NCBI GenBank assembly: GCA_034928305.1 | Contig: JAYFOZ010000001.1 | Coordinates: 62,001-126,000, forward strand | Reading direction: 5' to 3' | DNA: 64,000 nt | Source of the DNA: Methanomassiliicoccaceae archaeon | Lineage (GTDB): Archaea; Thermoplasmatota; Thermoplasmata; Methanomassiliicoccales; Methanomethylophilaceae | In this document: positions 22,366 through 24,354 of the stretch, piece by piece | How the letters are laid out: the number at the start of each line of letters is the position of its first letter | How positions within the stretch are numbered: the stretch's first letter is position 1 | The notes under the pieces: model-generated | The model's database searches: none | What the model was told of the DNA's origin: nothing | Seen by the model: only the letters and a program-made list of their open reading frames with translations | Position numbers and translations under genes: made by a program

Positions 22366-22872
22366 TCACCCGTCCTCTGCCACCACCATCTGAGCAACCT
22401 TAGGGCCCCCGTTTTCGACGGTGAACACCATCAGCGTCTCGTCCGCCGGGTCAAGCACCACCGCGAACCCGAGGCCCTCCCCGAATATCCCCGAATGCGT
22501 CCTTATGTCCACGTCGGAAAGGTAGCATCCGAATCCGGGATGCGAATGATACCATCCGATCACGCTGTCGCCCGCGCTCCCGTCGATGGATTCGAACAGC
22601 CCCTCCAGGGAATCGTGGTCGAATCTCACGCTTATGCTGGTAGAATCCAGTTTCGTGGTCGCTATATCGCAGGCGATCGAATACTCGCCCTCTGCATCTC
22701 TGAAGGTCCGGCCCATTATCAGGCCCATGACCTCCTTATCTTTGGCGAACCCGATATCGGCGTGGTCGGCCATCCGGGATATAACTTTCTCTCCGATGAA
22801 CAGCGGCACGCCCGGAACGCTGCGTCTCCTGTATTCGCGTTCGATCTTCTCCGAGGATATCACTTTAGGCAT
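22366..22872 (-). CDS. Rpn11-like JAMM/MPN+ metalloprotease (deubiquitinase-like)
   Basis: Zinc isopeptidase domain, 168 aa. Catalytic set complete: E47 in KEVMGLIMG and the JAMM motif H109-S-H111-P with S119 and D122. The stretch GWYHSHPGFGCYLSDVDIRT is very close to eukaryotic Rpn11/Csn5, closer than to typical bacterial JAB proteins (from memory of those families). The frame is open further upstream, but ATG 22872 has GGTGGG before it and overlaps the E2 stop. Last gene of the E1-UBL-E2-JAMM operon; its likely jobs are to trim the C-terminal Leu of the ubiquitin-like protein and to remove it from targets (inference). Confidence 0.88.
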   Translation of the reverse strand: MPKVISSEKIEREYRRRSVPGVPLFIGEKVISRMADHADIGFAKDKEVMGLIMGRTFRDAEGEYSIACDIATTKLDSTSISVRFDHDSLEGLFESIDGSAGDSVIGWYHSHPGFGCYLSDVDIRTHSGIFGEGLGFAVVLDPADETLMVFTVENGGPKVAQMVVAEDG

Positions 22873-23350
22873 TCTTCCCACCATAGCTGACGTGCGCATC
22901 GAACCTGGGTTTGTTTGCCAGGTACCACCTGGACGCCCTCATGCACGAGTCGGTGCCGTAAGGGCTCATGGGATTGGGGTCGGCCAGGAGGTTCTCCACG
23001 CCGACGACGAACGAGGTTATGTTCGAACCGAAGCTCCAGTTGTCCAACGTCTTCACGCATACGAACCCCCCGTCCCGGGGGACCATGATGTTAGGATGGA
23101 ATATCTCGGTCTTCCATTTTGCCCTTGGACGTTCGAAGGGATATTCTTCCGAAAGGACGAGGTCGAACCCGTGCTCCGGCGACATCTCGCTCTCGGAGAT
23201 CTTAGCGGGGGAATTCATAAGCGATATGCTCAGCACCACAGGGAACTCGGCGTTGTCCGGAACTTCGGATATCGAAAGTCCGAGGTAGCTGTTCAGCTCC
23301 CGGATCTCGTTATTGATCCTCTTTATGAGTATGGGCCTGACGAGCCCCAT
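22865..23350 (-). CDS. E2 ubiquitin-conjugating enzyme homologue
   Basis: 161 aa with the UBC fold signatures in order: EEYPFERPRAKWKTEIFHPNI (HPN at 85-87), then GGFVCVKTLDNW with the likely catalytic Cys C98 and W105, then SFVVGVENLLADPNPMSPYG, matching the LLxDPNPxxP region of eukaryotic E2s. This is a canonical E2 rather than a distant relative. It would take the ubiquitin-like protein from the E1 as a thioester and pass it to targets. The ATG follows the UBL stop with no gap, and the 3' end overlaps the JAMM gene by 8 nt. Confidence 0.88.
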   Translation of the reverse strand: MGLVRPILIKRINNEIRELNSYLGLSISEVPDNAEFPVVLSISLMNSPAKISESEMSPEHGFDLVLSEEYPFERPRAKWKTEIFHPNIMVPRDGGFVCVKTLDNWSFGSNITSFVVGVENLLADPNPMSPYGTDSCMRASRWYLANKPRFDAHVSYGGKNA

Positions 23351-23593
23351 TCAGAGACCGCCTTCCGGATCAGGTATCATCTCTATGACGTCTCCGTCCG
23401 AAAGATTCACCTCTTCCACGGTCCTGGAACCGATAAGGAGCTTCGCCCCCTTCCTGAGGACGAAAGCACCCGCTCCCTCTTTCCAGTAGTCCGCGGCCGA
23501 GTCTATGATATCAGATACTTTCTCGTAAGGTTCCAGCTCCATCCTTATGGAGGCTCCTGCTGCAGAGTTCACCACTGTCACTTTAATTGTCAT
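23351..23593 (-). CDS. ubiquitin-like protein with C-terminal Gly-Gly-Leu
   Basis: 80 aa beta-grasp protein. Strands TIKVTVVNSA and ASIRMELEPYEKVSDIIDSAADYW, the AFVLRKGAKLL region and VEEVNLSDGDVIEMIP reproduce the ubiquitin pattern (LSDGDVIE resembles the turn before the last strand of ubiquitin). It ends PDPEGGL: a diglycine followed by one residue, as in ubiquitin-like precursors that need trimming. Start ATG overlaps the E1 stop, and the E2 gene follows immediately. ThiS or MoaD sulfur carriers are the alternative, but they end in GG and are not found with E2 and JAMM genes in this order. Confidence 0.85.
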   Translation of the reverse strand: MTIKVTVVNSAAGASIRMELEPYEKVSDIIDSAADYWKEGAGAFVLRKGAKLLIGSRTVEEVNLSDGDVIEMIPDPEGGL

Positions 23594-24354
23594 CTTTTAT
23601 TCTCCTGGTGGTTCGGGCAACCCGGGTCAATGTCGAGGGCCACCTTGCCCATGGTACCCGCCTCCCCGTTGTAATAGGTTATGCCACTGGCACAGAGGTC
23701 GCTCCTTCCGGAGGCCAACTTTTCAGCCTCCCGCACCTGCATTGCGGCGATTATGGAAGTGGTCGTGATCTCGGCGGCCGTATGTGGAATGAAAACATGG
23801 GAATTGCCTGTGCAAGAGAACCTCCGGTCCGCGATCTTCTCGTGGCTGCTGTTGCTGGCGCACTGAAGGCAAGGCCCTCCCGGGAGCACGACCTGCATCT
23901 TTCCCGTCATGCCGTCCGTCGCACCATCGACATAAGGTATTCCGAAGTAAGCGGTGTGGGAGTTGACGTGCATCCTGGCGGAGAAGTTGTCCAGACATCC
24001 CAGGGCCAGGTCGTAGTCCCAACGGTCTAGTTCCTGAACCTTCGCAGTTATCGCCCTTACGTTCGCTTGCGGGCACAGTTCTGCCGCTCGTTCTGCCAGC
24101 ACCTCGGATTTCGGAAGGCCGTTGTCCCCTTCGCGGAAAAGTACGCATCGGCTCAGGTTGGAGTTCACGACATGGTCCGTGTCGACGACGTCGATATTCC
24201 TGAAACCTGCAAGGACCATGCATTTTACCGCCTCGTTACCCAGGGCTCCTGCGCCGACGACTAGGCACCGCGAACGGGAGATGCGCTCCATGTCCATCCA
24301 TCCGATGCGCCTCATCCGATCGAACCGGTCTGCATCCAGCGCATCAGCTCTCAT
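23590..24354 (-). CDS. E1-like ubiquitin-activating enzyme (ThiF/UBA family)
   Basis: Adenylates the C-terminus of the ubiquitin-like protein and holds it as a thioester. 254 aa from ATG 24354. Seen (numbering in this form): Rossmann CLVVGAGALGNEAVKCM, IDVVDTDHVVNSNLSRCVLF (nucleotide Asp, Asn and Arg), LGCLDNFSARMHVN, PCLQC, a candidate catalytic Cys C181 in FSCTG, and a final GCPNH. PCLQC and GCP give three Cys for a possible Zn site. The frame is open up to 24483 and would add a CxxCxxC-containing N-terminus, but a TATA box lies 27 bp before ATG 24354 and DRFDRMRRIGW is the usual family start. First gene of the operon, overlapping the UBL by 4 nt. Confidence 0.87.
   Translation of the reverse strand: MRADALDADRFDRMRRIGWMDMERISRSRCLVVGAGALGNEAVKCMVLAGFRNIDVVDTDHVVNSNLSRCVLFREGDNGLPKSEVLAERAAELCPQANVRAITAKVQELDRWDYDLALGCLDNFSARMHVNSHTAYFGIPYVDGATDGMTGKMQVVLPGGPCLQCASNSSHEKIADRRFSCTGNSHVFIPHTAAEITTTSIIAAMQVREAEKLASGRSDLCASGITYYNGEAGTMGKVALDIDPGCPNHQENKR

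Follow-up and report, generated by a model that had tools for sequence, protein, structure and literature searches.

A putative E1-UBL-E2-JAMM protein conjugation operon conserved across Thermoplasmatota

Introduction

The ubiquitin operon of Caldiarchaeum subterraneum, which encodes CsUb, an E1, an E2, the RING protein srfp and CsRpn11, is the reconstituted precedent for an archaeal ubiquitin pathway (PMC5654768, PMC6043591). Fuchs et al. 2018 described a 'JAMM-3' group, whose JAMM genes share operons with homologues of Ub, E1 and E2 (PMC6043591), and James et al. 2017 list a 'Cluster III' in their supplement (PMC5654768). Other systems share part of this inventory: (i) the SAMP/UbaA/HvJAMM1 system of Haloferax combines an archaeal ubiquitin-like modifier (UBL) bearing GG with an E1-like enzyme and a JAMM; and (ii) the Bil systems (BilA-D) bring together UBL, E1, E2 and JAB activities. 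The Bil E2 has a CEHH motif, the Bil E1 has two adenylation domains, and Bil acts against phages (PMC11354881).

Here, an E1-UBL-E2-JAMM gene set was analysed in a 64,000-nucleotide stretch of DNA (the window) of a Methanomassiliicoccaceae archaeon. The set resembles that of Caldiarchaeum in having a putatively cleavable tail after the GG of the UBL, an E1, an E2, a RING-type candidate and an Rpn11-like JAMM, and the model of the UBL structurally matches CsUb. In contrast to Caldiarchaeum, the E1 is a single domain of 254 aa, the UBL tail is PDPEGG, the spacing from the HPN Asn to the Cys of the E2 is 11 residues, and the JAMM lies in the operon while the RING candidate lies in a proteasome locus; the sequence closeness is no greater than family level. 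SAMPylation needs no E2 or E3, whereas here the E2 and the GG are kept and lost together. The CEHH motif, the E1 with two adenylation domains and the antiphage role of Bil were all not seen. The JAMM-3 group shares with the present locus an Rpn11/CSN5-like JAMM, a Ub-E1-E2 operon and the absence of a RING from the operon, and 'JAMM-3' or 'Cluster III' may be the same group as the Thermoplasmatota operon. The main-text passages on JAMM-3 and Cluster III name neither Thermoplasmatota nor methanogens, and they do not describe how the group is distributed, its UBL tails, a RING partner or states of decay. In the literature searched, Thermoplasmatota and ubiquitin-conjugating were not found together, and papers mentioning Methanomassiliicoccales and ubiquitin were seemingly unrelated to such a system, as judged by titles and abstracts. 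Within that literature, the statement of an earlier note, made from the sequence alone, that no characterised operon was known in this methanogen lineage held, and the Thermoplasmatota operon is probably an undescribed variant among archaeal ubiquitin-like systems.

Results

Layout of the operon and its surroundings

The gene set occupies positions 22366-24354 of the window on the minus strand. The E1 and UBL genes overlap by ATGA, the UBL and E2 genes abut, and the E2 and JAMM genes overlap by 8 nt. The features are:

23590-24354, minus strand: E1-like UBL-activating enzyme, 254 aa, one adenylation domain without a separate Cys domain
23351-23593, minus strand: ubiquitin-like modifier (UBL), 80 aa, ending in PDPEGG plus L, with the GG codons at 23357-23362
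22865-23350, minus strand: E2 conjugating enzyme, 161 aa, with HPN at residues 85-87 (23090-23098) and Cys98 (23057-23059)
22366-22872, minus strand: JAMM/MPN+ metalloprotease, 168 aa, with E47 (22732-22734), H109-S-H111 (22540-22548), S119 and D122
24379-24385, minus strand: TTTTTAT, resembling a TATA box, 24 nt upstream of the E1 ATG (inferred by reading the sequence)
21832-22365, plus strand: SIS-domain protein (6-phospho-3-hexuloisomerase-like), convergent with the operon (PF01380, 2.6e-12; TIGR03127, 3.7e-44)
20793-21830, plus strand: TIM-barrel (AP_endonuc_2-like) protein (PF01261, 6.3e-13)
19248-20642, minus strand: L18e, L13, S9 and RpoN ribosomal/RNA-polymerase cluster, read from translations without profile support
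24598-24804, plus strand: DUF2116 treble-clef protein that has a hydrophobic tail; its gene and the E1 gene are divergent

The earlier note had given the four genes, their coordinates, overlaps and motifs, and these held base for base. Two of its claims need qualification. The UBL was said to end in Gly-Gly; it ends in PDPEGGL, one residue beyond the GG. The genes were also said to share one promoter, which is plausible at most: its support is the TTTTTAT element, and a scan for sigma-70-type promoters gave a result at chance level. The placement of the element is compatible with a leaderless transcript, a possibility inferred only from its position.

The arrangement of the four genes is far from chance, because these four genes recur in this order in dozens of genomes. 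The neighbouring SIS and TIM-barrel genes were rejected as parts of the pathway and judged to reflect synteny, since both are encoded on the other strand. An E3 gene was looked for within the operon and none was found. The DUF2116 treble-clef gene was considered as an in-operon E3; a comparable gene occurs near the operon in only 8 of the 80 named loci.

Relationship of the four proteins to ubiquitin-pathway components

Relatedness to eukaryotic proteins was assessed by profile ranking and not by a tree with eukaryotic and Asgard E2s, for which there were too few positions. By this measure, the E1, UBL and JAMM are nearest to eukaryotic Uba1/UBA3, ubiquitin and Rpn11, respectively. All parts of the set are present with their motifs.

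The E1 matched ThiF in Pfam (PF00899, 1.8e-44). When its family profile was compared with the PDB, Uba1 was the best match (6e-44), followed by UBA3 (9e-40), with MoeB (2e-31) and ThiF (3e-31) behind. The protein consists of a single ThiF domain, and the separate catalytic-Cys domain of eukaryotic style and the UFD are both missing. Cys181 (codon 23812-23814) is invariant in 11 of 11 sequences and is not among the likely zinc ligands, which are probably CxxC162/165 together with C246/H249. Cys181 is thus a possible catalytic Cys; since the E1 has neither a separate catalytic-Cys domain nor a UFD, this role and the mode of E2 docking are guesses. Beyond the thiF of its thi cluster, the window's genome encodes one further ThiF-like protein.

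The UBL gave weak matches only in Pfam and NCBIfam, and its family profile retrieved ubiquitin as the first match in the PDB. The AlphaFold model (pLDDT 87) shows a beta-grasp fold, with Foldseek matches to SUMO1, Caldiarchaeum Ub, ubiquitin and ISG15. The PDPEGG end is conserved and is followed by 0-15 hypervariable residues that differ in nearly every species. The UBL of the window is predicted to be a precursor, from which the single Leu after the GG would need to be removed.

The E2, present as a single copy in the window's genome, matched UQ_con in Pfam (PF00179, 7.2e-14), and its AlphaFold model (pLDDT 91) matched Ube2S, Ube2D and Rad6 in Foldseek (prob 1.0). All 32 sequences compared share HPN, C98 and W105 without exception. 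The spacing from the HPN Asn to the Cys was 11 residues in 120 of the 121 E2s; in eukaryotic E2s it is about 8.

The JAMM, finally, matched JAB in Pfam (PF01398, 2.5e-13). Its metal motif is intact, and among solved MPN+ proteins Rpn11 is the nearest: the family profile gave Rpn11 as the best PDB match (1.5e-26), followed by Caldiarchaeum Rpn11 and CSN5 (about 1e-21) and AMSH (3e-12).

Distribution and inheritance

At family level the E2 model was positive in 56 of 102 genomes (13 of 14 genera), and at order level in 96 of 147 (28 of 30 genera). Among sampled genomes, 121 of 400 were positive for the class and 83 of 390 for the phylum; the positives at phylum level include a few of other E2 types. 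The gene order E1-UBL-E2-JAMM is repeated in dozens of loci, and the operon extends to remote families of Thermoplasmatota, in most cases present once per genome at a conserved site of the core genome. A scan of genome contigs gave 165 relatives, of which 80 were retained; these were Thermoplasmatota/Euryarchaeota records plus one Micrarchaeota, and the record names include Methanomassiliicoccus, Candidatus Methanoplasma and RumEn M1. The SIS gene and the TIM-barrel gene each lie beside the operon in 51 of the 80 named loci, and the L18e-L13-S9-RpoN cluster lies on the same side in 39-43 of them. This shared neighbourhood suggests vertical descent at a core-genome position, and the operon is an old, phylum-wide and largely vertically inherited locus of Thermoplasmatota. 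On this point the earlier note needs changing: the operon is neither rare nor peculiar to a single methanogen.

These data also bear on a role in defence, which the earlier note had suggested and for which no support was obtained. The operon could serve against phages in the manner of Bil or type II CBASS, the UBL being attached to proteins of the phage or to effectors; Bil and bacterial operons related to it combine these four activities (PMC11354881, PMC10097602). Against this reading, the operon is a single copy beside ribosomal-protein genes and is present family-wide, no effector gene lies alongside, and none of the viral contigs scanned carries it. PADLOC returned only distant E1-E2 and JAB domain matches, with none for the E2 or the UBL and no fitting system. 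An antiphage module is therefore considered unlikely.

Several other arrangements were observed. Another operon type in the phylum (L042, L060, L061) has an E1 of about 410-440 aa. Genome G160 (3.2 Mb, single contig) combines a Caldiarchaeum-like E2-JAMM locus (L041) with the Thermoplasmatota UBL and JAMM (L232), and also encodes a UBL-VWA protein (L233). A Micrarchaeota contig (L162:335-1133) encodes a UBL (MPDPTGG) and an E2 of the same type with a shorter HPN-Cys spacing (9). In two loci (L155:8837-9970 and 10515-12404; L156:8897-9967 and 10476-13130) the UBL forms the C-terminal domain of a zinc-ribbon and DUF835 protein and a JAMM is fused to a long coiled coil.

Coupled decay of the GG, the E2 and the JAMM

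The PDxGG end of the UBL is kept in 120 of the 121 distinct operons whose E2 bears FHPN and the Cys, and the sole exception (L140) is a truncated frame. Among E2-less genomes of the same family, the UBL gene survives in 31, with PDP mostly kept and the GG in none (0/31). Two further cases lie outside the family: an independent one in another family of the order (G111), without E2 and with a UBL ending in LDLVHER, and family f11, in which the UBL is fused to the E2, lacks the GG, and the catalytic Cys of the E2 is replaced. A counter-case (G178) keeps the GG while the E2 and half of the JAMM are missing in one stretch, which may be a recent deletion or an assembly fault. The GG is kept with the E2 and lost without it, so it persists only in the presence of an E2 able to use it.

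The f11 fusion is a UEV-like pseudo-E2 (L225:2831-3508, L226:2448-3131, L227, L235, L236). Genus g10 (L174, L178-L180, L182, L191-L213) has no E2 and no match to the JAMM HMM, and retains a UBL gene without GG.

The state of the JAMM was compared with that of the UBL tail. A JAMM without the HSH...S..D motif was found in seven operons, and in all seven the partner UBL ends exactly at the GG. On the E1+E2 tree the JAMM died twice, both times in one clade (f1), where 25 of 25 members with a live JAMM carry tails and 6 of 6 dead JAMMs are paired with a tailless UBL. The pattern comprises two independent losses, a number that does not allow formal testing (a sign test cannot reach significance). 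A tailless UBL with a dead JAMM matches the prediction for a protease that exposes the GG; this function is inferred, and the order of events is not known. The dead JAMM genes are kept as short genes (L003, L025, L027, L181, L185, L187, L189) and are perhaps Rpn8-like pseudo-enzymes.

An alternative for the E1 and UBL is a sulfur carrier system (ThiS/ThiF, MoaD/MoeB or a SAMP-like dual system), in which a UBL thiocarboxylate would supply sulfur for cofactors or tRNA and the E2 and JAMM would be accessory. In its favour, the E1 has a ThiF fold and matches the ThiF, UbaA and MoeB models below their cut-offs, and the UBL weakly matches MoaD and YukD. However, the window's genome has its own thiE-thiS-thiF-thiG cluster on another contig, the ThiS model does not match the UBL, and in the profiles MoeB/ThiF and ThiS/MoaD rank below Uba1/UBA3 and ubiquitin. 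An E2 whose HPN and Cys are invariant, as here, is not known to have a role in sulfur transfer, and the GG of the UBL is lost exactly where the E2 is lost. The sulfur carrier reading is thus improbable. A ThiF/ThiS-type sulfur carrier function of the E1 and UBL, with an E2 that forms no thioester, had been named in the earlier note as the outcome that would refute a ubiquitin-type pathway; the thiS-thiF pair elsewhere in the genome speaks against the sulfur carrier part of it.

A RING-like protein encoded next to psmA

The genome has one RING-like match, encoded outside the operon:

L237:1249-1779 (contig C2 of the window's genome, about 208.8-209.4 kb), minus strand: membrane-anchored RING-like protein, directly upstream of pop5-psmA

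The protein (176 aa) has an N-terminal hydrophobic segment, a C..C-C.C-H..C-C..C module and zinc ribbons, and its gene immediately precedes a Pop5-like gene and the gene for the proteasome alpha subunit, psmA. All eight metal-ligand positions of the module are invariant, and the family profile is nearest to E3 ligases in the PDB, which were retrieved first (ZNRF3 at 4.5e-6, AMFR, Arkadia). Within the window's own family, the gene was found at pop5-psmA in all 43 assessable E2-positive genomes and was missing in 29 of the 31 E2-less ones. Three genomes with E2 (G035, G044, G048) were not assessable, as their psmA has another location and neither pop5 nor the RING gene precedes it. The two E2-less genomes that have the RING gene (G045, 68% complete; G100, 91%) both lack the whole operon, and these exceptions may reflect incomplete genomes. 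The RING gene and the E2 were lost together in separate lineages (g10, part of g7, and g5). The supported independent contrasts number three; all agree, and they are too few for significance in a sign test.

The co-occurrence is thus shown; the activity is inferred from it and from the profile. The RING-like protein is the best E3 candidate and would tie the pathway to the proteasome genes, a component that the four-part pathway of the earlier note had missed. Alternatively, it may be a protein of the proteasome/RNase P operon that was lost by coincidence, with the E2 acting alone; Ubc9, for instance, works largely without an E3. The Pfam score is below the cut-off, the spacing of the zinc ligands is not textbook, the gene is unlinked to the operon, and the supported contrasts are just three. 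The distribution (43/43 versus 2/31, including contrasts within genera g7 and g5), the eight invariant ligand positions and the E3 ligases as top PDB matches oppose this alternative, which we hold to be the less likely of the two readings.

The hydrophobic segment at the start of the RING-like protein would also fit a non-protein target, e.g. a lipid, as with Atg8. The E2, however, has the Ubc fold and the HPN of lysine-directed E2s, and the UBL and JAMM resemble ubiquitin and Rpn11; Atg3 is without HPN. A lipid target is very improbable.

Co-loss of the proteasome with the E2 was tested and not seen: the proteasome is retained in all 45 near-complete genomes of the family, with or without E2. 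Since E2-less genomes keep the proteasome, tagging is not required for proteasome function. Any link between tagging and degradation would be conjecture.

Discussion

Overall, the operon likely encodes an ancient Thermoplasmatota system for ubiquitin-like conjugation to proteins. Biochemical data are lacking, and thioesters, isopeptide products and deconjugation are inferred, as is every chemical step below. In the proposed mechanism, the JAMM would trim the UBL precursor and expose the GG. The E1 would adenylate this GG and probably load the UBL on Cys181, from where it would be handed to Cys98 of the E2. As an HPN-type enzyme, the E2 would then transfer it to lysines of target proteins, which are themselves only inferred, probably assisted by the membrane-anchored RING-like E3; the JAMM could also take the tag off. 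The pathway for tagging and untagging proposed in the earlier note is supported by the catalytic residues, the coupled decay, the structure matches and the separate ThiS/ThiF, with no thioester or conjugate shown.

A bolder reading, for which we see slightly more reason to doubt than to believe, is that Thermoplasmatota inherited a complete ubiquitin-proteasome-like route of E1, UBL, E2, membrane RING E3 and Rpn11-like JAMM, with the RING wired genetically to the proteasome alpha gene. This would be an ancient branch of ubiquitin-type tagging, neither Asgard nor Caldiarchaeum, which in some descendants decayed stepwise until the UBL was no longer conjugated and the E2 had become a pseudo-E2.

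Discussion of ubiquitin-type tagging that involves a true E2 has mostly centred on Asgard archaea and Caldiarchaeum, and the conserved, compact version in Thermoplasmatota adds a simpler study system. The decay series (dead JAMM alone; E2 and GG lost; UBL fused to a Cys-less E2) offers a natural experiment on how the parts depend on each other, and the linkage of the RING and proteasome genes makes an archaeal ubiquitin-proteasome link directly testable. Thermoplasmatota include gut and rumen methanogens, and the operon bears on the age of the E1-E2-RING-JAMM cascade.
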